NCBI GenBank assembly: GCA_028819845.1
Contig: JAPPKS010000018.1
Coordinates: 1 to 64,000, forward strand
Source: Candidatus Poribacteria bacterium
GTDB taxonomy: Bacteria > Poribacteria > WGA-4E > PCPOR2b
Direction of reading: 5' to 3'
DNA length: 64,000 bases
Shown here: positions 1 to 13,170 of the stretch, piece by piece
Position numbering within the stretch: position 1 is the first letter of the stretch
Layout: each line of letters starts with the position of its first letter
Notes under the pieces: model-generated
Databases searched by the model: none
What the model saw: only the letters and a program-made list of their open reading frames with translations
Told to the model about the DNA's origin: nothing
Program-made: the position numbers and the translations under genes

Positions 1-55
1 AGTTAATGGCAACCATCACTTTCAGTCCCCTTTTCATCGGGGTAGAGGTTGTTAC
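1..55 (-). CRISPR. Leader-proximal repeat and partial spacer of a CRISPR array
   Basis: A single repeat-like unit of about 37 nt lies at 19-55, followed leftward by the start of a spacer (1-18) cut by the window edge. Its core is CCCCTTTTCATCGGGG (27-42), a four-pair stem with an 8-nt loop. Read on the minus strand it ends in ACTGAAAG, which resembles the ATTGAAAC-type 8-nt 5' handle of type I crRNAs. The array would therefore be transcribed leftward, in the same direction as the cas genes, with cas4 upstream. Only one copy is visible, so exact repeat boundaries are inferred from the handle and stem rather than from periodicity. Confidence 0.72.
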
Positions 56-448: not shown

Positions 449-1021
449 TCACAACACATCGGCGCAGAACCGACGAAATTCACATTCAACGCATTTTCCG
501 CGCTGCGGCGTCGGTGGCGGCATTCGCTCGTATGATAGAATAGTCCGTATCTCATCAATACTGTCGAGGGTTTTTCGCCGCAACGCCTCTGTAATCGGTA
601 CCGCGGTGATGCGCCTTGTAGGAATCCGATAGATAAATCCTTGGGATACTGTTTGACCTAGGCATTCCTCCACCATCATTGCATACGCAGTCAACTGGTA
701 TTTGGCGTTTAGATTCAGCCTCTGCCTTGTGGACTTAAACTCAACTGGAAAAGCACCTTCTTCTGTCTCAATGAGCAGGTCAAGCACGCCAGACAATCCG
801 AGAGCGTCCGCGTTCAGTGCGACATGAAACTTGCGGTTTCCCGATTCCAACCCATAACGGGAGAGGAGCCGGCGCCGCTCCAAGACGCTGAGCACCTCGT
901 GTTCAACCGCGCCATGCTGCATTGGATGCGTAACCGGGCGGTGGACCGGTGTGAAATAGGTGTGGTAGACCACCCGCGGACAGTAGAAATACTGTTTGAT
1001 GTCGCTGACGCGTATGTTCAT
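449..1021 (-). CDS. cas4: CRISPR-associated exonuclease Cas4
   Basis: Cas4 is a RecB-family iron-sulfur nuclease that trims prespacers and checks the PAM before Cas1-Cas2 integrates them. The 190-residue product has the expected layout. One cysteine sits at the N-terminus (Cys14 in YFYCPR) and three at the C-terminus (Cys177, 180 and 186 in CVECEFRRFC), together able to hold a 4Fe-4S cluster. Between them are the nuclease residues: a His in HGAVEHE, an Asp in GVLDLLIE and the EFKSTR motif. Length is normal for the family. It is the last gene of the cas1-cas2-cas4 adaptation group and sits next to the array leader. A hairpin repeat separates it from cas2. Confidence 0.93.
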   Translation of the reverse strand: MNIRVSDIKQYFYCPRVVYHTYFTPVHRPVTHPMQHGAVEHEVLSVLERRRLLSRYGLESGNRKFHVALNADALGLSGVLDLLIETEEGAFPVEFKSTRQRLNLNAKYQLTAYAMMVEECLGQTVSQGFIYRIPTRRITAVPITEALRRKTLDSIDEIRTILSYERMPPPTPQRGKCVECEFRRFCADVL

Positions 1022-1117: not shown

Positions 1118-1369
1118 TCATTTGCCATTTTCCTCAATGACCGTTCGTTTATCGTAATCTTTTGCACATACACCCATGACTTCGATTACTCCTTCTGCCT
1201 TGCCGAGTTGAACTGCCAGTTTTTCCTCCAATGCGCGCCGCCGAGTGGTGTTGATGTCGCCGCGGAAGGCGCTGTATTGGATTCGGTGTAAGCCGTAATC
1301 GAGGCAAACATCGGCGATTTTTTTGCGGATACGGTCATTGACGATGTCGTAGATGACGTAGGTTTGCAT
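1118..1369 (-). CDS. cas2: CRISPR-associated endonuclease Cas2
   Basis: Cas2 forms the dimeric core that bridges two Cas1 dimers during spacer integration. The 83-residue product begins MQTYVIYDIVNDRIRKKIAD, the ferredoxin-like first strand with the conserved Asp after YVIYD, and continues with GLHRIQYSAFRGD, the usual strand 2/3 region of Cas2. The C-terminus is short and lacks a fused domain. The gene lies between cas1 and cas4 with hairpin repeats in both gaps, so the adaptation genes are probably co-transcribed but not translationally overlapped. The start ATG at 1367-1369 is the only sensible one. Confidence 0.92.
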   Translation of the reverse strand: MQTYVIYDIVNDRIRKKIADVCLDYGLHRIQYSAFRGDINTTRRRALEEKLAVQLGKAEGVIEVMGVCAKDYDKRTVIEENGK

Positions 1370-1542: not shown

Positions 1543-2643
1543 TTACCATGTGGCGATGAAAGGTTGATAATCCCGTTCGCGGCGTAGGAACATCGCCAGA
1601 TGACGTGCTTGGAGTTGAATGATGTTGCAGAGTTTCTGTTCTTTCCGCTCGAACCGCTCGGTCTCCTGTAGCCGCCCTAGCACACGGTCGGCAATTGCGC
1701 GGCGGGTTTCACGGCTTAGCCGGCGCTGCGACGGAGTATCAGCCGCGCTATCGGATTTTGAGGATTGGTGAGCGGCTTTTGCGGCTTCGCTGTCTGGCTC
1801 TTCCCACCCGACGTTGAACCTTTTGTTAATCATGGCAAACACAACCCTATCCACGACGGACTGGCGGAATTCTTCGATAAAGTCTAACACTAACGACGGT
1901 TTGCCGGGGCGGTCGACGTGCAGGAACCCCGCAAACGGCTCGAGTCCAGCGAGTGACAGCGCGCTCCAGACTTGCGAGTAGAGTATCCCGTAGCCGTAGT
2001 TGAGTAGTGCGTTCACGTCGTCGACTGCGCCGCGATGGTTTCGAGTGTTGAATCGTCCGGCGGGCAACAGCCGTTGGACGCATTCCCAGTAGAGGGCGCC
2101 GGCGCGTCCTTCGAGATTAAGGAGCGTCGATCGCATCGCATCAACGGGCGTGGTAGTATCCGCGGGCGTTTCCAGAGCGCTCAATTCCGACAGAATCGCC
2201 TCAATTTTTCCAATGCGTTCCATGAGTTCAGTATATTTTTTTGGTGCTTGTTTCTTGCGGTATTTTCCGAAATAACGGACGAGGTTTACTTGGTTCTTCA
2301 GCTTGCCCGCAGCGAACCGCTTGGCAATCTCCAATCCACGCGCGTCGTGGTAGGCGGCGAGTTGTTCGCGTCTTGAAATCACGGTGGCGGTAAGGGATGG
2401 GCTATTGAGTTTCGCGTACGGCTTACCGTTGAAACTGAGGAACGAGATTTCGATGCCGCGTTCGGTACACGCTTCAATCAGGTCAGAGGAGACGCTGACG
2501 CCGCGGGAGGCAATAACAATCTGGTCGAGATCCATCAGTGCGTGTTCCTCTTTTTTGCGCTCCTTGTCTCGGTAACGGACACTGACACGCTCGGAATGTT
2601 TGCCGAGATAGGTGCCGTAATCGGAGATAGTGAGTTGGTTCAT
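1543..2643 (-). CDS. cas1: CRISPR-associated endonuclease/integrase Cas1
   Basis: Cas1 is the metal-dependent integrase that joins new spacers to the leader-end repeat. The 366-residue protein has the N-terminal beta domain (about 1-90; ALMDLDQIVIASRGVSVS is typical) and the helical catalytic domain. Conserved catalytic residues are visible: Glu178 in NLEGRAGALYW, His242 in GFLHVDRPGK and the acidic DFIEEFR segment at about 254-260. It is somewhat longer than the usual 320-340 residues because of a polar stretch near 290-315 (rich in Ala, Ser, Asp). It starts the adaptation group cas1-cas2-cas4 and is divergently oriented from the DUF433 gene across a gap of about 180 bp. Confidence 0.95.
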   Translation of the reverse strand: MNQLTISDYGTYLGKHSERVSVRYRDKERKKEEHALMDLDQIVIASRGVSVSSDLIEACTERGIEISFLSFNGKPYAKLNSPSLTATVISRREQLAAYHDARGLEIAKRFAAGKLKNQVNLVRYFGKYRKKQAPKKYTELMERIGKIEAILSELSALETPADTTTPVDAMRSTLLNLEGRAGALYWECVQRLLPAGRFNTRNHRGAVDDVNALLNYGYGILYSQVWSALSLAGLEPFAGFLHVDRPGKPSLVLDFIEEFRQSVVDRVVFAMINKRFNVGWEEPDSEAAKAAHQSSKSDSAADTPSQRRLSRETRRAIADRVLGRLQETERFERKEQKLCNIIQLQARHLAMFLRRERDYQPFIATW

Positions 2644-2821
2644 TTTCTCTTTCCTTTCAATCTAATTGCATAGAATAATCTCGAAGTGTTTTCTTAATTC
2701 TTGCGCGTATGCCGAATTTCAGGTATACTTTAAAGACGATTGAACAATCGTTGAACCCCGTGCAGCGGCCCCACAACGCTACGCCATTTTCGACTCACGA
2801 TTGATTCAAAGGAACCAATTT

Positions 2822-3103
2822 ATGTGCCAACATTGCGATACTTACAGATTTCTTGAAGCCCGTCCGAATCATTGGCGCCGGCAACTCTGGATAAAGGGTA
2901 GAAACATGACCGTTTGGCACCTTATCGCCGCCATGCGCACCGAACGCGAGACACTTGAGGGAACGGCTAAGAACTTCGGGTTGCCGCTTGAAGCTGTCCT
3001 TGAAGCGACACACTACTATGTCCTCCACAAAGACATTGTCGAAGCCGACACGGAAGAGGAGAAACGCATTCTCACCGAAGAATTCGGTTATCACTTGGAT
3101 TAG
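2822..3103 (+). CDS. DUF433-family antitoxin-like protein
   Basis: Small protein of about 93 residues with the DUF433 pattern: a beta-strand and HTH-like segment (MTVWHLIAAMRTERETLEGTA) followed by FGLPLEAVLEATHYYVLHKD. DUF433 proteins are usually the antitoxin-like partner of PIN-like toxins. I chose ATG at 2822 because AAAGGA precedes it at good spacing; an upstream TTG at 2801 has no better signal. Its stop is two bases from the next start, so it is co-translated with the DUF5615 gene. The pair sits between the effector and adaptation parts of the cas locus, on the opposite strand. Function as an antitoxin is inferred from family and pairing. Confidence 0.8.
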   Translation: MCQHCDTYRFLEARPNHWRRQLWIKGRNMTVWHLIAAMRTERETLEGTAKNFGLPLEAVLEATHYYVLHKDIVEADTEEEKRILTEEFGYHLD

Positions 3104-3105
3104 CC

Positions 3106-3474
3106 ATGTCTCTCACAATCTACCTTGACGATTGTTCTGATGATAACCGTCTAATCCATTCCCTCACGCTGGCAGGACACACCGTTATATCACCCCGATC
3201 GACAAATACCAAAGACTTGGACGATGGCGACCACCTCCGTTACGCCGCGGCTCATGGTTACTGTGTACTTACCCATAACCCCTTAGATTTTCGCCGATTA
3301 CACCGTGATTGGCAGGATCGAGGATTTACGCATTCAGGAATTTTTGTTATCTACCGTGACAACAACATCCGCAAGGATATGAACAATATTGACATCGTCA
3401 GATCCATCGCAAACCTGTCGGCTTCGAACTTGCCTATCGCCAACGAAATTCACATCCTCAATCAGTGGCGATAG
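3106..3474 (+). CDS. DUF5615-family PIN-like toxin candidate
   Basis: This 122-residue protein matches the DUF5615 (Mut7-C-like PIN) layout: an N-terminal acidic strand (IYLDDCSDDNRLIHSL), GHTVISP, an Asp-rich segment DLDDGDHLRYAAAHG and the CVLTHNPLDF block. PIN-like proteins are metal-dependent RNases and the acidic residues would form the active site. In typical members the third block reads LVTxDxDF; here it is LTHNPLDF, so one acidic position may be substituted. The gene overlaps no other but is only 2 bp from the DUF433 gene, the usual toxin-antitoxin order. Activity is not shown by sequence alone. Confidence 0.78.
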   Translation: MSLTIYLDDCSDDNRLIHSLTLAGHTVISPRSTNTKDLDDGDHLRYAAAHGYCVLTHNPLDFRRLHRDWQDRGFTHSGIFVIYRDNNIRKDMNNIDIVRSIANLSASNLPIANEIHILNQWR

Positions 3475-3493
3475 TAACTTCAAAGCAGGCACG

Positions 3494-3577
3494 AGGTGCA
3501 TGTTAATTGCGACAGCCCAACCAAGAACGACAATCCGCCGTGAAAGAAGAACGTACCGTGACAGTTTCTCTCAATAA
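3494..3577 (+). pseudogene. BrnT toxin, C-terminal remnant
   Basis: The reading frame ending at 3577 encodes RCMLIATAQ followed by TIRRERRTYRDS. This resembles the last part of BrnT ribonuclease toxins, which ends in an ISAR...TRRERRxYE block. About 27 residues remain and the catalytic part is missing, replaced upstream by the DUF5615 gene. The remnant overlaps the start of the brnA remnant, as brnT normally overlaps brnA, which supports the identification. Confidence 0.6.
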
Positions 3578-3861
3578 CCTCCCGAAAAACACGCAAACCG
3601 ATCAACCGACTGAATAAGGAGGGCGATAGCAATTCCGCAGCGACCGAAGCCGAAATTAACGCGGCAGCGGTATCGGACCCCGACGCCCAGCCGACTGATG
3701 CGGCATTTTGGAGAGATGCCGAGATTGTGATACCCGAACCTAAACACGCCATATCTCTGCGCGTCGACAGCGATGTGCTCAAGTGGTTCAAATCTCAGGG
3801 CAAAGGTTACCAGACGCGCATGAACGCCGTGTTGCGGGCGTATATGAAAGCACATCAATAG
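3540..3861 (+). pseudogene. BrnA antitoxin, frameshifted
   Basis: A GTG at 3540 opens a frame encoding KEERTVTVSLNNLPKNTQTD, which stops at 3615-3617. The BrnA-like sequence resumes in another frame: TEAEINAAAVSDPDAQPTD, AFWRDAEIVIPEPKHAISLR, then DVLKWFKSQGKGYQTRMNAV and the C-terminal LRAYMKAHQ, ending at 3861. This is the BrnA ribbon-helix-helix antitoxin family (CopG-like C-terminus). The frame is broken at a copy of the 23-bp repeat unit (3600-3630), which appears to have replaced or enlarged the normal linker. The intact C-terminal DNA-binding half might still be made from an internal start, but none is obvious. Confidence 0.75.
3600..3630 (+). repeat. 23-bp-unit repeat copy inside brnA
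   Basis: GATCAACCGACTGAATAAGG and the following GGGCGATAGC match the interspersed unit found at 16080-16100, 16560-16610 and elsewhere (consensus TCAACTGACCGAATAG then GGCGATAGT). Here it brings the stop codon and a frameshift into brnA. Confidence 0.75.
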
Positions 3862-4111
3862 GGAGCTCTCAACCGAGTTTGAAACATCAATCGCGCTGCT
3901 ATTGCAAAATTTTTACGCTTTCACAGTTACACAATGATCCGCCGTGAAACCGAGTTTTTTGCACAGAAACCAAGTTTTTTCGGCGTAGAAACGCGAGATT
4001 GACGAAAATCGGAGCAATTTACCTTTTTTGATTTAGCATTCCTGAACCAAAAAATCGGTTTCTCGGCATATATTTCGGGCGTATTTGTGATGCCCGACAT
4101 TAGGCCAGAAA
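3862..4111. repeat. Noncoding gap with degenerate AACCGAG arms
   Basis: This 250-bp gap between brnA and cas5 has no gene. It contains direct, imperfect copies of the hairpin arm: GTGAAACCGAGTTTTTT (3944-3960), ACAGAAACCAAGTTTTTT (3963-3980), a shorter TAGAAACGCGAG near 3986, and an opposite-arm copy AAAAAATCGGTTTCTCGG (4050-4067). It looks like a decayed cluster of the same hairpin family found at the other cas junctions. Confidence 0.7.
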
Positions 4112-4801
4112 TCAAATGCCTAGACGTTCGTAATCACTAAAGCCACGACTCGATTTGCGCAACCGGTAGGGAAGCATGGCAAGGCAAGTGCGCCGCTCCT
4201 TACCAACACGGATGTTCTTCCCGCTGTAAATATCGGCTTGCTCGAAAGTCATCATATCGTCGCAATCATCCAAGTGTTGTAACTGACTTTGAATATGCCA
4301 TGTATCCGCTTGTTCACCCAGAGGCGTAAAGTCAGAAGGTAACCCCTCAACTTGTTGTATCGGCGGAAGAAATTGAAAGAACCCACCACGCTTCCCAAAG
4401 TATGTAATGTGAGGCAGTAACTGTTTCAACGATTCCATCTGTGAATTGTCGTGAATTTCAAAACCTAGCTTCATATTACCAGCGAAATGGACATATTCGC
4501 GGTAGCCGATAGTTCTATCGTATCCGTTCTTGCCCTTAGAACGAGTAGGCTTCAGAATACGCGTGAACACGTTGTTGACTAACGCACGTTCAGGTACACG
4601 TACTGCGAATGACAAGCCGCGTATCCACTGCCACGCTTCCTCCCCGGAACCGATTCCATCTGTGCGTATGGCGGCATCTAACAGCCCCATCTTTATCGCA
4701 TAAGGTGTTGGCGTCAACAGCGTTTTACCGCCTGATGATGTAGCATTGCTCGGCTTGAGCGAAAAGAACGTGGTGGGTTGATAGGTAGCTAACACCCACA
4801 T
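4112..4801 (-). CDS. cas5: CRISPR-associated protein Cas5
   Basis: Cas5 is the RAMP-fold subunit that caps the 5' handle of the crRNA in type I Cascade. The 229-residue product starts MWVLATYQPTTFFSLKPSNA and has KTLLTPTPYAIKMGLLDAA, the helix that follows the first strand in Cas5 proteins. The downstream PERALVNNVFTRILKP region and the following Lys/Gly-rich segment are also typical. It follows cas7 with a one-base gap, so the two are translationally coupled. The C-terminal region (SSRGFSDYERLGI) is not distinctive. Subtype is unclear; it is closest in style to I-A/I-B-type Cas5. Confidence 0.85.
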   Translation of the reverse strand: MWVLATYQPTTFFSLKPSNATSSGGKTLLTPTPYAIKMGLLDAAIRTDGIGSGEEAWQWIRGLSFAVRVPERALVNNVFTRILKPTRSKGKNGYDRTIGYREYVHFAGNMKLGFEIHDNSQMESLKQLLPHITYFGKRGGFFQFLPPIQQVEGLPSDFTPLGEQADTWHIQSQLQHLDDCDDMMTFEQADIYSGKNIRVGKERRTCLAMLPYRLRKSSRGFSDYERLGI

Positions 4802-4802
4802 T

Positions 4803-5843
4803 TTAGTTCCCTCCGTTGTAGCTTATCTTGTAAGGTTCAGTTGTATTGGCAAGACTTGCCATCAGTTCAGCGTAATTGCCAAGTGTGTCAAACTTCTGGC
4901 ATTCAATCGCTCCTGCTTCAATTTGGTTGAGCGCATTGGCGATACGTTGGATTTCTTCCTTGTAACACTTATTGAGTGGGCTGACCGTCGGTGCGGGTAA
5001 AATCTTGGTGCTGAGACTAACAACTCCCTCAAAGTTGACGAGATGCGGATTCTGTGCACTTCGCATCGCCCCGTTCGGCTCGACGAAAGTGCAAAGCAGG
5101 CTTTCAATTAACGCCTTGTAACGTTGATTGCGCTCCTCTTCACCAATAGCGTAAGCCTGACTTATATCGTTGAAGCCTAGCCGTGAAACCTCAATTCCTG
5201 CGACAATCGCATAAATCCCGGAATTGGCTGGACGATGGAAGATGTTCTGTCCCAGATTAGCCCCACTGTCATCATCGCTCGCGTTGTCACTAGGATTCTG
5301 GGTTCCGCTGTCACCAGTGCTCCCGCTACTATCTGCGTTCTGCACTCCACTATCCGATACATATTTGACATGGAAGTAGTTATCGGTCGTGTTCAACTCT
5401 GGTATGCCCACGACCCAACCAAACTCCACGATTGACTTGCGAGGTGTTGATTTGTTTTTCGCTGTTACGAGGATCCCCTCAACGTCATCAATGGTACAAG
5501 TTTGTAACATCGTAGTAATTATCTCGTTGTCGGGGGTGTTTTTGTCGAATGTATTGAGAAAGGTTTCATCGTCAAGGATGCGATTAGCGCTGAATTTTTG
5601 ACATCCTGAACATAGATTCAGACCGCTATTTCTACTAAAGTGAAACAGATGTTCAGCCTGAATATGTTTGAACATGTCTCCTGAAATCGCGTTAACAGCA
5701 GCGAGCTTACCCATCTGATCATAGACGTTGACCATACGGGTTGCAATCTGGTTGCCCTCACTTCCCTCGTTGTTGAGAGAGTGCATGTCAATTGTGGCTT
5801 GACCACAGATGGTAAGGGAGTAAATGGCTTTGTTATCGTTCAT
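4803..5843 (-). CDS. cas7: CRISPR-associated protein Cas7 (DevR/Csa2-like backbone)
   Basis: Cas7 polymerises along the crRNA to form the Cascade backbone. The N-terminus (YSLTICGQATIDMHSLNNEG, then GNQIATRMVNVYD and NAISGDMFKHIQAEHL) matches the DevR/MJ0381-type Cas7 family, where the AISG(D/E)MLKH block is characteristic. Residues 163-199 are an unusual Ser/Asp/Gly/Asn-rich stretch with no predicted structure. After it the RAMP fold resumes (GIYAIVAGIEVSRLGFND). The start overlaps the end of cas8 by 11 bp, and the stop is one base from cas5, so cas8-cas7-cas5 are one translational unit. Two Cys in CSGCQKF near 78-81 are also notable. Confidence 0.9.
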   Translation of the reverse strand: MNDNKAIYSLTICGQATIDMHSLNNEGSEGNQIATRMVNVYDQMGKLAAVNAISGDMFKHIQAEHLFHFSRNSGLNLCSGCQKFSANRILDDETFLNTFDKNTPDNEIITTMLQTCTIDDVEGILVTAKNKSTPRKSIVEFGWVVGIPELNTTDNYFHVKYVSDSGVQNADSSGSTGDSGTQNPSDNASDDDSGANLGQNIFHRPANSGIYAIVAGIEVSRLGFNDISQAYAIGEEERNQRYKALIESLLCTFVEPNGAMRSAQNPHLVNFEGVVSLSTKILPAPTVSPLNKCYKEEIQRIANALNQIEAGAIECQKFDTLGNYAELMASLANTTEPYKISYNGGN

Positions 5844-7665
5844 TTTGATCTCCTTGCTGGGTGTTGGAGGTTACATCGTCTGCCGGAGCCGCATCGCGGC
5901 TTGTTAAAGCGTATCCGAAAGCTACGAGCAAATGACAGACGGTTTGGGGGCCGTAACGATCAATCAATCGGACAATTTCGGTGATGTCGTCTTCGCGGAC
6001 GCTTTTCCGCCGGTAATGTTCAGATAACTCCACGGCGTCAGCGTTTTCTTCAGCACGGACATTTTCTGCGTTAAAAGTATGAAGAAAATCGCTTAATTCC
6101 TGAATGAACTCGCGAGGGTAATTTGCCTTGCGTCGCAGTTTCTCACCAAGTCCATATCGGACATCGTACGGTGGTTTTGGTTTTTTCTGCTTTTTTGCAA
6201 ATATTGTCTGGTATTGTAGCCTCACGGTACTCTGACGGATGGCTCTGGCGATGTTTTGAAACCCCTCGCTTTCAATAATCGGCGTGAGACGTTCTTCGGT
6301 ATTCATGAGTAACCTCCTCAAATTGGTTGTGCTCAACGGCTTCACCCAGAAGTGAGATTCGGCCAAAGCGTCAAGCAGATAGTTTGGATATTTCGCTGTG
6401 AAATCAAAGAATGCCATGATATCGTTGGCGGAAAGAAAATCTCGATAATGTTGAAGTAGCTGATAACCTTCGCTCCGTTCCTCCTCTAGGCTGCCGACGA
6501 TTTTCAGGTGTTCGGCTATCATCTGTTGGTATAATCGCACATCGTCAGAATCATTGACGTTCATCCAGCGGGGTAAATTAATAAAGGAAAGGTTCATTAC
6601 GGCAGACGAATTGCCGAGATCTTTATAAAACGCAGTGTAGAGACCTGCGACGAAATTCTCTGGGGCACGCCCCAGCAACTGCACAGCCAACGACGCGCTT
6701 GCTTCCGCTTCGCAGTGTTGTAGGAAGCAGTCCATGTACCGTAGCGAGGCAAAGATGTCCGATTTAATTGCGTGACGATTCCCTACTTCATCTCTGAATT
6801 TTGCAAAGATTGTATTGTGTTCCTCCAATGTGATGTTGACGGGCGCGAGCGCGAATGTTTTCCTGTCCTTTGGGGGTACTCCTTGTTTGACCAATACATA
6901 TCGAGGCACGGCACAATGGTAGAAACCTACCATCTTTACGTATTCGCATAGCCAGAACTTCTTTTGCGACTTCATTTCCAACTTGTCCGCTTTGGGAGCA
7001 ATTCCCCCTTTTCCCGTGCTCGGATTGAACACTTGGAGCATGGTCAAGCGGTCATCGCCAACAAGGTTCTTGTCTTTTTTGAGTATTTTCCATTTTTTCT
7101 CGCAGGCAGAAATTGGGTTTGGTGTTTCGGCGTGGAGTGCAAGCAACAACTTAATTACGTCTGCAGCATTCTCGCGATTTACAAACCAGTTGATAACAGC
7201 TGAATCGTACGTACTAATCCCCGACATTGTATTGATTTTTTGCCAAACCGGGTAGTAAGGTGAAGGTTTAGAGGGTAGCGTAGTATCGCTCTCATCTACA
7301 CCTCTATTCATCGTGTGACGAAGGTTTTGGCGAGCATCTCGGTAGGTATTATAAACCTCTTTCTGCTCTTCATAATCAACATATTTGATACCTTCGGGCA
7401 TAGCTGAAACAACCTTCGGCGTCTTCGTTTTAATGTAGTCAATCGGTGCAATGAATTTTGCGTTCTCAATCCATTCTTCTTTCAACGCATGATTGAGTTG
7501 AATCGCGTATGTTGCCCCTTGGTCCACTAATCGGACAATTCGCGAATCGCGAACGTCACGGACTCCTTGCAATACTAAATCTAGAATAGCAGCCAATCCA
7601 TAGGCTGAACAGACATCGGCGAATGTGCCAGTCTGTTTGTCGACGAAGTAAGTCTGTTGATACAT
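5833..7665 (-). CDS. Type I CRISPR large subunit, Cas8-like
   Basis: This 610-residue protein sits where the large Cascade subunit is expected, between cas3 and cas7. It has few recognisable motifs, as is usual for Cas8. Visible features are an N-terminal segment (YFVDKQTGTFADVCSAYGLA) reminiscent of Cas8a1/Cmx1-like proteins, a central KKFWLCEYVKMVGFY segment and a charged C-terminal helical region that could act as the small-subunit-like part, since no separate cas11 is present. ATG at 7665 is preferred over GTG at 7674 because AGGGAG precedes it at good spacing. Subtype assignment is open: I-A-like or Myxan-like is most plausible. Confidence 0.75.
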   Translation of the reverse strand: MYQQTYFVDKQTGTFADVCSAYGLAAILDLVLQGVRDVRDSRIVRLVDQGATYAIQLNHALKEEWIENAKFIAPIDYIKTKTPKVVSAMPEGIKYVDYEEQKEVYNTYRDARQNLRHTMNRGVDESDTTLPSKPSPYYPVWQKINTMSGISTYDSAVINWFVNRENAADVIKLLLALHAETPNPISACEKKWKILKKDKNLVGDDRLTMLQVFNPSTGKGGIAPKADKLEMKSQKKFWLCEYVKMVGFYHCAVPRYVLVKQGVPPKDRKTFALAPVNITLEEHNTIFAKFRDEVGNRHAIKSDIFASLRYMDCFLQHCEAEASASLAVQLLGRAPENFVAGLYTAFYKDLGNSSAVMNLSFINLPRWMNVNDSDDVRLYQQMIAEHLKIVGSLEEERSEGYQLLQHYRDFLSANDIMAFFDFTAKYPNYLLDALAESHFWVKPLSTTNLRRLLMNTEERLTPIIESEGFQNIARAIRQSTVRLQYQTIFAKKQKKPKPPYDVRYGLGEKLRRKANYPREFIQELSDFLHTFNAENVRAEENADAVELSEHYRRKSVREDDITEIVRLIDRYGPQTVCHLLVAFGYALTSRDAAPADDVTSNTQQGDQNER

Positions 7666-7677
7666 GATTGTCACTCC

Positions 7678-10101
7678 CTATCTACTGACGTGAGAGGTGG
7701 CTTCTTGGTCAGCAAGTCGCAAAGCACGCACAATTAGAAAATAAGTCAACAGTGGAATGTCTTTGTATGGGGATACAAACATCCCTGTCAATGGCTGAGG
7801 TTGCGCTTGTCTACAAATCTTCCCCAAGTGAGTTTGAGCAATCTCCCCCGCTTCTCCAATCATTTGCAAAGCGGTTTCGATTGAGGTTTGAGACGCGGGG
7901 TGAAGCGTATAAGCTTGATATTGATTTGCTTTCGGCGCATGATGGCGCGCGATTGCAGTAAGACTAGCTTTGAGAAGCACTTCTTGGTCACCACTGAACG
8001 TGTCCACTAATATTGGCGCAATCGCACGCATACTCTCAACGGCATGTGGCGGCCGTTTGACGCGGAGGTTCCTCTCTCTTTCACGCTGCACAAGATTGTC
8101 TCGCTCGTAATCGGTATGCGCCGCCATGTAGTCTTCATCCAAGGGACAATCAATCGCTTGTTGCCATCGGTGCGCCCATTCTTGCCATTTAACAGTGAGT
8201 TTTCCGACATCATGTAGAGCAATGCAGAGCCGAATTGCCTGATCGATTGCACCTTTGGATACTCCAAGTTTTTGCTCAAGTCGCGCGGCAGCGTAACTCA
8301 GTTCAGCCGCTAGACCAGATTGATATGTATTTAGCAGATGTTGAATATGTTGGGTGTATGTTTCGCGACATAAGCCTCCGCCGCGCTCGTTTTCTTGTGT
8401 GGTTTCATCGTCTGGAACGCCTAATGGGCAATGTGTTTCTCCTGCTTTAAGACGAAAGCCTATCTTGTCATTGTATGTAACCAGTTTTGGATGCACTACA
8501 AACAGTGGAGAAATACCCAAGTCTTTCTTTTGTTTTGCCTCACGCCACTCGTAGGCGATGACAATACGACTGTTTGGCGAGTTGTCTTCCATTTCCTTCG
8601 GATACTTCAGACACCAATTCAGCCCCTTGTCTTGCGCCGCTTGTTGAAGCTCATCCCACGCCCCAAACAGTGTGCCGCGATAAAGGCTGAAACCTTCAAC
8701 CCGAAATGGCTTTGGAAACGCTTCTTCTGGATGATCATGCACGAGCAATGTACGTGAATCATTTTTGCGAATCAACTCTCGGGCGAGACCTAGTTCCTGT
8801 CCAGAAATCGCTTCTGATATATGATTGCGTATTGGACGCGACCCAATGCCCTCCAATATTCTTTCATCACCGTCGCTGTGGACCTTGTTGATAATTTGTT
8901 GCTCAGCCGCAAAGTCTAACACATCTTCGTTTCGCTCTTGGAATGCGGTCAGCGTGGCTTCACAGGTTTCCTTGTCGTAAGGAGCATAATTTGGTGAATC
9001 GTCAGCGCTAGGTGGAACAGGATAGATTGCCACTGTTCCACATTCGTTTTCAAACCGCGCACACCGCCCCGCACGTTGAAAAATTGCGCTTGCGGGAGCT
9101 AACTCTGTGTGGAGGTTTTCAGACGTGATGTCTAACCCAACTTCAATCACTTGTGTAGCAACCAAAATCACATTGTCAGGTTCCGCGTCCTGTTTGAAAC
9201 GACAACGTATCATATCCTCTTTTACTTTTCGGTGTTCCTTCCGAAATCGGGAATGCAATAGAAATACTTCCGTTTCACCGCGGCGTTCCCACAGCGACTG
9301 GTATATCTCCTGTGCGCGTGCCACCGTGTTGCAGATGACAATGCTGCGTTGCTGATGTCGTTCAATAATCGCGTCCACGTTCTTCGAAAGCGTTCCCTTG
9401 TTAACCCGATACTCACGCCGTTTTCCTTGCTGAGAAGGGATTTGTTTAAGTTCAGCTTCTGTCACTGGCACGATTTCCGCGTTAAAGTATTTGCTTAAAC
9501 GCTCAAGAAGCACCTTTGAAAAAGTGGCAGTCATCAGTAGAAACGGAGTAATACCGTTGAGCATCTTTAACATTTCAATCACAGTTCCCAAAGAGGTATC
9601 AGGGTCAAACAAGTGAAATTCATCAAAAATCAGATACGAGCCAACAACTGCACCCGCGTTGACATTTCCCTGACGTAATCCCAACGAATACGGGATGTTA
9701 AGAAAACTACTCAGCACCTGATCGATAGTCGTGAAAATCAGGTCGCTACGAAACTGACGGTCATCTTGATTTTCACCTGTTTGGATTTCTGCCTTGAGAC
9801 TCGTCTGTTGCCCTACTGGCGATTCTTTGAAATCGGTGTGAAAGTTCTTTGCCAAGACTCGCATTGGCGTCGTGTAAAGTAGTTTTCGGGGAAACGGCAT
9901 GTTCTCCTGTTGAGCCAACAGATATGGAAACAAGGCGGCTTTCGTTTTGCCAGCTCCCGTTGGAGCTTGCAAAATAACATTGCGCCCATTCAAAATATGT
10001 TCTGCCACCTTACGCTGAAACTCAAAAGGAACAAATCCCTCGCCAAACATGTCCTGAAATTGGTTATCCCAATACTGTTTGTCTCTCTCAAATTTTGACA
10101 T
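7678..10101 (-). CDS. cas3: CRISPR-associated helicase-nuclease Cas3 with C-terminal HD domain
   Basis: Cas3 unwinds and degrades the DNA marked by Cascade. The 807-residue protein begins with the SF2 helicase: Walker A APTGAGKT (46-53), DEFH box (160-163), LLMTATFSK, and the motif VI region QRAGRCARFE near 350. The HD nuclease is at the C-terminus, around residue 620: ALHDVGKLTVKWQEWAH, then RPPHAVES, ARHHAPK and a final Asp in RLADQEA. Most Cas3 proteins have HD first; HD last is best known from type I-G. Gaps to cas6 (9 bp) and cas8 (12 bp) are short, so it belongs to the effector operon. Confidence 0.93.
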   Translation of the reverse strand: MSKFERDKQYWDNQFQDMFGEGFVPFEFQRKVAEHILNGRNVILQAPTGAGKTKAALFPYLLAQQENMPFPRKLLYTTPMRVLAKNFHTDFKESPVGQQTSLKAEIQTGENQDDRQFRSDLIFTTIDQVLSSFLNIPYSLGLRQGNVNAGAVVGSYLIFDEFHLFDPDTSLGTVIEMLKMLNGITPFLLMTATFSKVLLERLSKYFNAEIVPVTEAELKQIPSQQGKRREYRVNKGTLSKNVDAIIERHQQRSIVICNTVARAQEIYQSLWERRGETEVFLLHSRFRKEHRKVKEDMIRCRFKQDAEPDNVILVATQVIEVGLDITSENLHTELAPASAIFQRAGRCARFENECGTVAIYPVPPSADDSPNYAPYDKETCEATLTAFQERNEDVLDFAAEQQIINKVHSDGDERILEGIGSRPIRNHISEAISGQELGLARELIRKNDSRTLLVHDHPEEAFPKPFRVEGFSLYRGTLFGAWDELQQAAQDKGLNWCLKYPKEMEDNSPNSRIVIAYEWREAKQKKDLGISPLFVVHPKLVTYNDKIGFRLKAGETHCPLGVPDDETTQENERGGGLCRETYTQHIQHLLNTYQSGLAAELSYAAARLEQKLGVSKGAIDQAIRLCIALHDVGKLTVKWQEWAHRWQQAIDCPLDEDYMAAHTDYERDNLVQRERERNLRVKRPPHAVESMRAIAPILVDTFSGDQEVLLKASLTAIARHHAPKANQYQAYTLHPASQTSIETALQMIGEAGEIAQTHLGKICRQAQPQPLTGMFVSPYKDIPLLTYFLIVRALRLADQEATSHVSR

Positions 10102-10110
10102 AATAGATCC

Positions 10111-10983
10111 TCACTCAACCCGATACTTCCCCAACCCAAACGTCGCATTTTTGCCGACGTGTAGAAAAACGCCCAATGCGACAAATGGCAGGAACGCCGC
10201 CAAATTGCCCGCGTAGGTTACATTGCCGACTAACCCGCCGAGTTGCATCTTTTGGTTCTGGCGTGACGAGTAGCGTGTCCAATCCTTCCATCGCAGGCTG
10301 CTCTCAACTGTCTCGACTGTCTCTGCCTGTGCGATGAGTCCCGTAAAGTCGAGATCGAGCGATTCACCGCAGTGGAAATACGCCAACGCTGAGATGCGTC
10401 CAATGAGGCGCCGCCAGAAGAGGTGGAATGGGAGTTTATCAGTCACCTGTCCTTTGTGCGTGATGCGCGTTGGGTTGAGCAAGTGCACGGTCAACTGGTC
10501 GGTCGGTCGGGATACGGCTTCGCGCCGAATCTCGCCGAAACTGAGCGTGTTATTTCGATTGTGTACCATCTGGGTTTCATTGTCGTAGATACATTCACCG
10601 CTATCGGTCAAGACTTGGGTCACCAGGAATCGTCCGCGTCCCTTGCCAATACCGATCTCGCCGAGCTCGCGGAAACTGGCGAGGAAATAGGGGAGGTAAT
10701 CAACGGCGCGACCAATCAGTGTCAGTTGGAACGAGAACGATTCGCCTTTGCGGTATTCGCCGCGTGTATCCAACGGATCGATGACAAACGGTCGCGGCAC
10801 ATCCCCATAAGTTCGCAACTGCTGCGCCCCCTCAAACGGCGCCGTTTCAAAGATGTAGGGATACGGGCAGGCTGCCTTTAGTACGCAATCTCGGCAGTCG
10901 ATCGGTCCTTGGGTGCAGACCATTTTTCGGAAGGCGTGTCCGAATCCGCCGCGGAGTGTTGAGCCAGCGTATGGCGGCATCAC
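10111..10983 (-). CDS. cas6: CRISPR precursor-RNA endoribonuclease Cas6
   Basis: Cas6 cuts precursor crRNA at the base of the repeat hairpin. The product shows YAGSTLRGGFGHAFRKMVC, a cysteine cluster (CRDCVLKAACPYPYIFET) and a C-terminal glycine-rich loop (GVFLHVGKNATFGLGKYR) typical of the PF10040-type Cas6. The first usual start is GTG at 10983, directly followed by ATG. However, the frame stays open upstream and encodes LQNFRLARYRVILTARSTVV, which looks like a normal Cas6 N-terminus. No ATG, GTG or TTG lies in that extension; the likeliest initiation point would be an ATA at 11049. It is the first gene of the effector operon, followed by cas3. Confidence 0.88.
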   Translation of the reverse strand: MMPPYAGSTLRGGFGHAFRKMVCTQGPIDCRDCVLKAACPYPYIFETAPFEGAQQLRTYGDVPRPFVIDPLDTRGEYRKGESFSFQLTLIGRAVDYLPYFLASFRELGEIGIGKGRGRFLVTQVLTDSGECIYDNETQMVHNRNNTLSFGEIRREAVSRPTDQLTVHLLNPTRITHKGQVTDKLPFHLFWRRLIGRISALAYFHCGESLDLDFTGLIAQAETVETVESSLRWKDWTRYSSRQNQKMQLGGLVGNVTYAGNLAAFLPFVALGVFLHVGKNATFGLGKYRVE

Positions 10984-11067
10984 GACGGTTGACCGTGCGG
11001 TTAGGATTACCCGGTAGCGAGCGAGTCTAAAGTTCTGAAGTATATTTATTGGAGTGTCCTGTTATTG

Positions 11068-11091
11068 TTTAGTCCGCTTTTCATCGCGGTA
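11068..11091 (-). promoter_or_regulatory. Lone CRISPR-repeat-like hairpin upstream of cas6
   Basis: TTTAGTCCGC, loop TTTTCATC, GCGGTA aligns with repeat positions 20-44 of the array: 22 of 25 positions match, with one gap. The two substitutions fall on the two partners of one stem base pair (C-G became G-C at 11076/11087), so the stem CCGC/GCGG is kept. On the minus strand it is followed by ACTAAACA where the array has ACTGAAAG. The outer half of the repeat is not conserved. It lies 19 nt before the probable Cas6 N-terminus and would be in the cas6 mRNA leader. Confidence 0.7.
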
Positions 11092-11116
11092 TGTAAGGGA
11101 TGATAAGGAAAGCCTC

Positions 11117-11150
11117 AGAAACCGAGTTTTTTCTTGAAAACTCGGTTTCT
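11117..11150. repeat. AACCGAG hairpin repeat, copy 4 (cas6-WYL gap)
   Basis: AGAAACCGAGTTTTTTC and the pairing arm GAAAACTCGGTTTCT form the same hairpin as the copies around cas1, cas2 and cas4. It lies between the WYL regulator and cas6. In this window the family appears only inside the cas locus. Confidence 0.9.
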
Positions 11151-11243
11151 TGGTTATTCAGACAACTTCTGTCCAAATCTTACCCCAATTATACAGATCA
11201 ATACCGTCAGAACGTGTCGGCGATCTGAAATTTTGACGTTTTT

Positions 11244-12236
11244 TTAGGGATTTTCGTATTTTTTTGTCATTTTTTTGATTTCTAGAGTGATTTCCTGACG
11301 AAAATCGGCTGGTGCGACCACCTCCGCACATCTGCCCCATTGCAAGATCTGACGCATCAATCCTTCACGTCCTTCTGTATCGAAATGCAGCTCAATTTGG
11401 TCGTTCCCTTGGTCAATCTGTTTTTGCAAACCCTGCCATTTCTGGAGGCGTACCCAGCGGGAGGCGGGCGGATCGACACGGATGACCGCTTGCACAGGTT
11501 GATCTTTCATACCGCCAAACCCTCGTGCGATGTACTCGTTGAGGTCGAAGCCTGCCTGACCTTCAAAGGTTTCGTCGAGGATCGTCAGTGAGCGCATCCG
11601 GTCGTCAAACACAAATTCGCGGAGTGCTTTTCGGGTGTGGCAATAGCCGATTAACCGCAGTGCGTTGTCCGAATAGGCGATGCCGTAAGGGTCAATCTTG
11701 CGTTGGAGTGATTCGCCCCGGCTCGCAGAGTGATAAAGCAAGTTAAGTCGTTGTCGTTTTTCGCAAGCGTTTTGTGCTTGGTTGATGTGTGGTGCGACAC
11801 TTTGAAAATCTTTCACCGGTTGGAGGCGAAAGGCGAGGAGGTTTTGGATCCGGTTGAAGTAATCCTGACCTTCAGCGGGCAGGGTGGCGTGCATTTTTTT
11901 CATGGCGTTGGTAAGTGCTTCAAAGTATGGTGTGCCTTCGAGAAAGGTGGTTACGTCTTGTGCAAGGGTCAATGCCAACCGTTCGGGTAGGGATAGATCC
12001 AGTGCGGGAAATTGGTAGTCATCCTTGAATCTATATCGTTTTTGCCGCCCTTCCTTCTCTTCCAGAATTGATGGGAAATACCGCATGAGGATAGGGAGGT
12101 CCCGCTCGATCGTGCGTTCACTGGCCCCGGTTTCTTCAATCAGTTGTTTCTTTGTGACGCCGTTGCGTCTGGCGATCTTATTCAGAATAAACCATTGCCG
12201 TTCTATCTGCTTTTCGTCTGCAATTCGTTGAGGCAT
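11244..12236 (-). CDS. HTH-WYL transcriptional regulator
   Basis: A 330-residue regulator with an N-terminal winged HTH of the DeoR-like type (RNGVTKKQLIEETGASERTI, residues about 19-38) and a C-terminal WYL ligand-binding domain (RQRLNLLYHSASRGESLQRK, IDPYGIAYSDNALRLIGYCH). The end (QWGRCAEVVAPADFRQEITL) is the usual WCX tail. WYL regulators commonly sit beside CRISPR and other defence loci and sense nucleic acid or nucleotide ligands. It lies directly upstream of cas6 on the same strand, so it may control the operon. A truncated relative lies immediately upstream. Confidence 0.88.
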   Translation of the reverse strand: MPQRIADEKQIERQWFILNKIARRNGVTKKQLIEETGASERTIERDLPILMRYFPSILEEKEGRQKRYRFKDDYQFPALDLSLPERLALTLAQDVTTFLEGTPYFEALTNAMKKMHATLPAEGQDYFNRIQNLLAFRLQPVKDFQSVAPHINQAQNACEKRQRLNLLYHSASRGESLQRKIDPYGIAYSDNALRLIGYCHTRKALREFVFDDRMRSLTILDETFEGQAGFDLNEYIARGFGGMKDQPVQAVIRVDPPASRWVRLQKWQGLQKQIDQGNDQIELHFDTEGREGLMRQILQWGRCAEVVAPADFRQEITLEIKKMTKKYENP

Positions 12237-12843: not shown

Positions 12844-13000
12844 GCGTTGGGTTACGCAGAAGACGGGTGAAGACTAATGGAAGACTGATGGAAGACTATC
12901 GCCTTCGCTATCCGCTCAGTTGATCCCTCCCTTTTCGGTCGGTTGATCCTTAAGAAAACTATCGCACTCCCTATTCAGTCGATTGATCGGTCAGTTGATC
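12844..13000 (-). repeat. Modular repeat array nested behind GCGTTGGGTT arm
   Basis: Reading rightward: GCGTTGGGTT (one arm of the larger inverted repeat), CGCAGAAGAC, three 10-11-bp units (GGGTGAAGAC, TAATGGAAGAC, TGATGGAAGAC), TATCGC, then two 23-bp units ending in CTCAGTTGATC and GGTCGGTTGATC, and a further degenerate copy ending at 13000. This is the reverse complement of the arrangement at 16060-16126 with more units. Confidence 0.78.
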
Positions 13001-13170
13001 CCTGCCTACGAAAGGCGTATCGTCGGACTCCCGTTTTATAAAAGGGGGGGATTTTACGTGAGTAGGCTATTTATGCAAAAATAACCAGGCTGCGATGAAG
13101 TCGCATCAATTACGCCTTGAATCTTATTCATCACTATCTAAAGGATGGGGGAAAGTTCACAAGAAATAAT

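Follow-up and report, generated by a model that had tools for sequence, protein, structure and literature searches.

A stem-loop derived from a CRISPR repeat stands alone directly in front of cas6 in the type I-A cas locus of this Poribacteria genome. It has probably been kept as a site within the 5′ leader of the cas6 mRNA that Cas6 recognises in cis, a reading that we draw from the sequence and from its comparison with related loci. The preservation of the hairpin in relatives and its recurrence in other phyla suggest that Cas6 may control its own production. An initial annotation of this DNA had proposed that Cas6 acts on its own leader, and the proposal gains comparative support here, since the hairpin keeps a fixed distance to the start codon, travels with cas6 and recurs in other phyla.

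The cas locus and the start of cas6

In the window (the whole 64,000-nt stretch of DNA that was analysed), the cas locus lies on the minus strand in the order WYL regulator, hairpin, cas6, cas3, cas8a, cas7 and cas5a, with cas1, cas2, cas4, the array leader and the first repeat further on. Its features are the following:

11244-12236 (minus): transcriptional regulator with a WYL/WCX domain, kept in relatives and upstream of the hairpin
11187-11212 (minus): promoter-like block TTCTGACGGTATTGATCTGTATAATT, conserved in three genomes
11117-11150 (no strand): palindromic repeat AGAAACCGAGTTTT...AAAACTCGGTTTCT, between the promoter-like block and the lone hairpin
11066-11091 (minus, sense of the cas6 mRNA): lone CRISPR-repeat-like stem-loop, which reads TACCGCGATGAAAAGCGGACTAAACA
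11086-11089 with 11074-11077: stem of the lone element, CCGC/GCGG, closing the loop GATGAAAA at 11078-11085
11050-11073 (minus): 24-nt leader from the predicted cut site to the start codon, with the degenerate handle ACTAAACA and then a Shine-Dalgarno-like AGGA at 11057-11060
10111-11049 (minus): cas6 (PADLOC PDLC01477, E 1.2e-107)
7678-10101 (minus): cas3, helicase with an HD domain toward the C-terminal side
5833-7674 (minus): cas8a (PDLC01417, E 1.1e-60)
4803-5843 (minus): cas7, DevR/Csa2 family, I-A
4112-4801 (minus): cas5a (PDLC01390, E 4.6e-63)
1543-2643 (minus): cas1
1118-1369 (minus): cas2
449-1021 (minus): cas4
19-55 (minus): first visible repeat of the array, GTAACAACCTCTACCCCGATGAAAAGGGGACTGAAAG

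Between cas5 and cas1, the opposite strand carries a small two-gene unit (2801-3474, plus), which may be a toxin-antitoxin pair because its second gene is DUF5615. A small BrnA-like ORF remnant (RVDSDVLKWFKSQGKGYQTRMNAVLRAYMKAHQ), apparently frameshifted, lies at 3536-3862 (plus) and adjoins a short dispersed repeat; an intact relative lies in G013 (L087 5575-6066). The palindromic repeat is separate from the CRISPR element and is dispersed genome-wide (16 places by strict pattern), with three copies in the cas locus (1060-1093, 1377-1410 and 11117-11150).

The conserved N-terminus of Cas6, LQNFRLARYR, begins at about 11049, upstream of the first ATG or GTG (the first listed start is GTG at 10983). 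By analogy with the handle of the array, the cut of the lone element by Cas6 is predicted between 11074 and 11073, and because the protein begins at about 11049 and not at 10983, the predicted cut site is 24 nt ahead of the start codon. The placement upstream of cas6 given in the initial annotation is therefore correct, and the element is nearer to the gene than it had looked. The aligned start codon is ATA at 11047-11049 in the present genome and ATG, in register, in three relatives. The gene thus appears to start at ATA, which may mean that cas6 is weakly translated, that it is decaying in this genome, or that the contig is mis-assembled or holds a base error at this point. Compared with solved structures, Cas6 gave a single marginal match, to Cas6-RT-Cas1 (E 0.018).

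Transcription through the hairpin is suggested by the conserved promoter-like block, in which a putative −10 box, TATAAT, would place the hairpin in the 5′ UTR; no match to the sigma-70 consensus was found on the cas6 strand.

The lone element and the CRISPR array

The main repeat of the array, TACCCCGATGAAAAGGGGACTGAAAG, which weakly resembles CRISPR-DR10 and DR32 of Rfam, is identical to the lone element at 21 of 26 positions. The five mismatches are both partners of one stem pair and three positions in the handle. A match of 22 in 25 had been claimed before, with the two stem-pair partners as the sole substitutions; the element is indeed present and above chance, the true count is 21 of 26, and the three handle differences come in addition. 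The loop had been described as identical, and it is, since GATGAAAA and the trailing GGAC match the CRISPR repeat. When the last 27 nt of the repeat were compared with the window, the lone element scored 21 and the next best site 17 (the array repeat itself excluded), while the maximum over 200 dinucleotide shuffles of the window was 20 of 27. A 26-position covariance model, whose 15 input elements comprise both lone and array ones, gives the lone element 31.2 bits and an E value of 2.8e-6 in 64 kb, partly by construction, as the element is included in the model. A search of 10950-11250 against Rfam returned nothing credible, with sub-threshold matches that fall mostly on the palindromic repeat.

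The array appears to run on from the window (contig C17) into contig C32, across a presumed join of the two contigs. On contig C32 there are 83 more repeats, and the last five of them show the CCGC variant: four have the stem CCGC/GCGG, and the terminal one has CCGC/GGGG. New units are usually inserted at the leader end of an array, so that the distal repeats are the oldest. The lone element matches the four distal CCGC/GCGG repeats at 23 of 26 positions; the first 21 positions are identical, and the differences lie only in the handle. The double change in the stem is thus a variant of the array repeat, and the compensatory reading of the initial annotation, as a change that only the lone element has, is ruled out by these four repeats of its own array. 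In the relative G022, the 3′ side of the stem is GGGG in every array repeat found and the 5′ side is CCCC in nearly every one, whereas the lone element of G022 keeps CGC/GCG, which indicates that the lone element does not simply track the current array.

Conservation in Poribacteria

The hairpin is kept in all four genomes that have this cas6 at an identity of at least 82% (the present genome and the relatives G022, G020 and G013), with distances from the predicted cut to the start codon of 24, 23, 24 and 20 nt, respectively. When the WYL-cas6 intergenic regions of the present genome, G022 and G020 are aligned, no invariant run is longer than CGCGATGAAAAGCGGAC (17/17, at a background identity of 46.5%), which ends directly after GGAC; G013 keeps 15 of the 17 positions of this core. 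The second-longest invariant run, TTGATCTGTATAATT, lies within the promoter-like block, about 100 nt upstream. Among these genomes, 34-68% of the four-fold degenerate sites of cas6 differ. A strict search for the core in 85 genomes of the phylum found only the four cas6 leaders and the CRISPR arrays of the present genome and of G048.

According to the initial annotation, its proposal would be contradicted by relatives without the hairpin or with stem changes that are not compensated, and on this the outcome is mixed. The hairpin itself is present in all four genomes, but in three of them the outermost stem position reads A-G. The same A-G is found in the CRISPR repeats of G048 and in the leader repeat of G020, so that a 3-bp stem also occurs in the CRISPR repeats of these genomes. 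Three of the four lone stems are accordingly only 3 bp long (predicted −4.2 kcal/mol), and in the minimum-energy fold of the long leader of G022 and of G013 the hairpin is not formed.

These data also bear on the possibility that the element acts as DNA, with the inverted repeat CCGC-N8-GCGG serving as an operator for the WYL regulator or for another protein and the likeness to a repeat being secondary. The dyad does adjoin the conserved WYL gene. However, it is merely CGC/GCG in the three relatives, the match to the CRISPR repeat extends to the loop and to the trailing GGAC, which a dyad does not need, and every strict-core match in the phylum falls in a CRISPR repeat or a cas6 leader. We consider such an operator very improbable.

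In G013, a second repeat-like hairpin, CCCCGTTGAAAAGGGGACTGAAAA (L087 13960; G013:C66:84456-84476), precedes the lone one by exactly one array period (74 nt) and overlaps the end of a sigma-factor-like ORF. No second closing repeat was detected in the present genome, G022 or G020. This second hairpin would agree with a fossil origin, in which the lone element is the functionless, degenerate terminal repeat of a former array between the WYL gene and cas6, as would the older CCGC/GCGG stem that the element shares with the distal end of the array and the confinement of the degeneracy to the handle half. Yet the core is the longest invariant intergenic run although silent sites have diverged to near saturation, the invariance stops after GGAC with the spacing to the start codon held at 20-24 nt, and an equal placement recurs in other phyla, as described below. 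A mere fossil is therefore unlikely, although it retains some small weight.

The hairpin is absent at the 62%-identical cas6 of G002, at the more distant cas6 genes of Poribacteria (mostly 35-42% identity) and at an orphan cas6 copy on contig C26. The orphan gene (G000:C26:29646-30590; L062 3641-4597) is about 70% identical to cas6 and has no cas neighbours, and it may be inactive, as the His of GFGHAF is replaced by Pro.

Linkage to cas6 through effector exchange

The WYL-hairpin-cas6 segment and the cas1-cas2-cas4 segment are constant around three unrelated effector modules. Between cas6 and cas1, the present genome has a type I-A effector, G022 and G013 have I-B, and G020 has a divergent I-B (the exchanged region is seen in L085, L086 and L087 against 1543-11043 of the window). 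The arrays keep the handle ACTGAAAG with rare single changes, and the lone elements read ACTAAACA, ACAACATG, ACAATATA and ACTGGATA. Since Cas6 is shared while the effectors differ, and since the ACTGAAAG handle is kept only in the arrays, the element is tied to Cas6 and not to Cascade.

G013 also has two duplicated pieces, one of 33 codons from the 3′ end of cas6 (L087 12026-12124) and one from the start of cas8b (12906-13034), which look as if they were scars of effector exchange.

Recurrence in other phyla and stem covariation

The covariance model was used to scan 1.02 Mb, made up of 80 loci that carry related cas6 genes. Beyond Poribacteria, standalone matches just before cas6 and on its sense strand are present in two Planctomycetota loci (L099 and L110) and, more weakly, in one Bacillota locus (L107). 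The match at L110:7660 has an E value of 0.0099, the lone element of L110 being outside the model, while the element matched at L099:2528 is part of the model. The Cas6 proteins of L099 and L110 are orthologues with 72% identity and a four-fold divergence of 0.46, and the best local match between the 300-nt regions upstream of the two genes is the repeat-like block. For L107 the match (L107:2841), whose lone element is also outside the model, has an E value of only 1.5 over the whole 1-Mb search, so that its weight comes from its position. The relatives of L107 (46-56% identity) lack the hairpin, and we therefore rejected this locus as a conserved case and keep it as a single weak instance.

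Two further candidates, repeats that lie 150-230 nt upstream of cas6, were set aside. That of L096 is the end of an array and not a lone element, and a solitary CRISPR-repeat-like sequence in Nitrospirae (L142:9819-9844), about 180 nt upstream of cas6, is too distant to count.

Across array repeats and lone elements together, all 45 cells of the 3-bp stem are paired, 13 double changes are seen, and sliding one partner destroys the pairing; the double changes lie mostly between array repeats of different genomes. The four lone stems of Poribacteria are all CGC/GCG, so that the covariation looked for in related Poribacteria, following the initial annotation, is not found among these four.

Is the element a guide?

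For type I and V-A systems, reviews treat it as established that standalone repeats can serve as guides, and a guide of the CreR/CreA kind had also been put forward for the present element. The degenerate-repeat RNA, cut by Cas6, would then direct Cascade to a cas promoter with which it is partly complementary, so that transcription is repressed. The second hairpin of G013, one array period upstream, lies as it would in a two-repeat mini-array, which an often degenerate second repeat closes. However, a guide requires a handle that Cascade can use, and here the hairpin is kept while the handle is not conserved; what would be the spacer consists of the Shine-Dalgarno sequence and the first codons of cas6; and the element persists although the effector has been replaced.

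A guide also requires partial complementarity to a cas or toxin promoter. Seeds in the 36 nt after the handle were compared with about 13-21 kb per locus (less for L107 and L110), in a scan that covered the loci only and included the elements of the present genome, G022, G020, G013 (with its upstream repeat), L107 and L110. In none of them did the seeds do better than shuffled spacers (P 0.3-0.7), and the search for a protospacer proposed at the outset thus came out at the level of its controls. With an unconserved handle, a ribosome-binding site following it and no target above chance within the locus, the CreR-type guide is disfavoured, and we regard it as quite unlikely; a Cas6 site in the leader is favoured instead. 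If the element were nevertheless a guide, a guide-length RNA beginning with ACUAAACA would be found in Cascade.

Proposed mechanism and related systems

According to the Cas6-site reading, Cas6 would bind the leader hairpin just ahead of the ribosome-binding site and would probably cut at the base of the hairpin, leaving a leader of 20-24 nt. Cas6 would in this way regulate its own synthesis by feedback, and perhaps that of the operon behind it as well. The transcripts of the array would compete for Cas6, such that, when much uncut pre-crRNA is present, the leader would be released and more Cas6 would be supplied. A negative feedback that is relieved by pre-crRNA seems the likelier sign, because the site competes with ribosomes by its position and the repeats of the array would compete for Cas6. 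Alternatively, cutting might free the start site and raise expression. More generally, we tentatively suggest that Cas6 may be under autogenous control by a decoy of its substrate, placed at the ribosome-binding site of cas6, with the pre-crRNA load setting the supply, and that such a guide-free use of a repeat may have arisen or persisted in several phyla and may survive the replacement of the effector.

Autogenous control through the leader of the own mRNA is known for other RNases, namely of rnc by RNase III and of rne by RNase E. The proposed logic is alike, in that a processing nuclease would limit its own synthesis by recognising, in the 5′ UTR of its own mRNA, a copy of the substrate that it naturally processes; here, in contrast, Cas6 would be the proposed nuclease and a CRISPR repeat would stand for the substrate. 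Shmakov et al. (NAR 2023) reportedly described standalone repeats and crRNA-like regulatory elements in cas loci, mostly mini-arrays with a spacer that matches a promoter. The present element is likewise a solitary repeat-derived element in a cas locus, outside the array and conserved among related loci, but it differs in that no target was found in the locus and in that the hairpin is followed by a ribosome-binding site.

CreR/CreA (PMC12737573, PMC8730458) shares with it a degenerate repeat beside the cas genes and a maturation that is likely Cas6-dependent in both cases, whereas the element described here has no conserved handle and no above-chance target in the locus and is linked to cas6 instead of the effector. 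The solitary-repeat Racr RNAs of phages (PMC10651486) are similar in that a solitary repeat mimic could occupy a Cas protein that handles crRNA. Racr RNAs are phage anti-CRISPRs, while the present hairpin is host-encoded and acts, as proposed, in cis in the cas6 leader, and no relative of this Cas6 was found in viral contigs. Among the titles and abstracts of the literature collected, we found none describing Cas6 acting on its own leader, which is weak evidence given the limited collection.

Stray CRISPR repeats are known in cas loci and have been explained as guides for Cascade or Cas12a. The conserved hairpin described here, with its fixed spacing to cas6 and with neither a usable handle nor an above-chance target in the locus, points to a guide-free use, in which a nuclease would read its own mRNA. 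If this is true, the supply of Cas6 would be linked to the load of pre-crRNA, which would help to account for cas6 keeping in register during the exchange of the effector modules around it.
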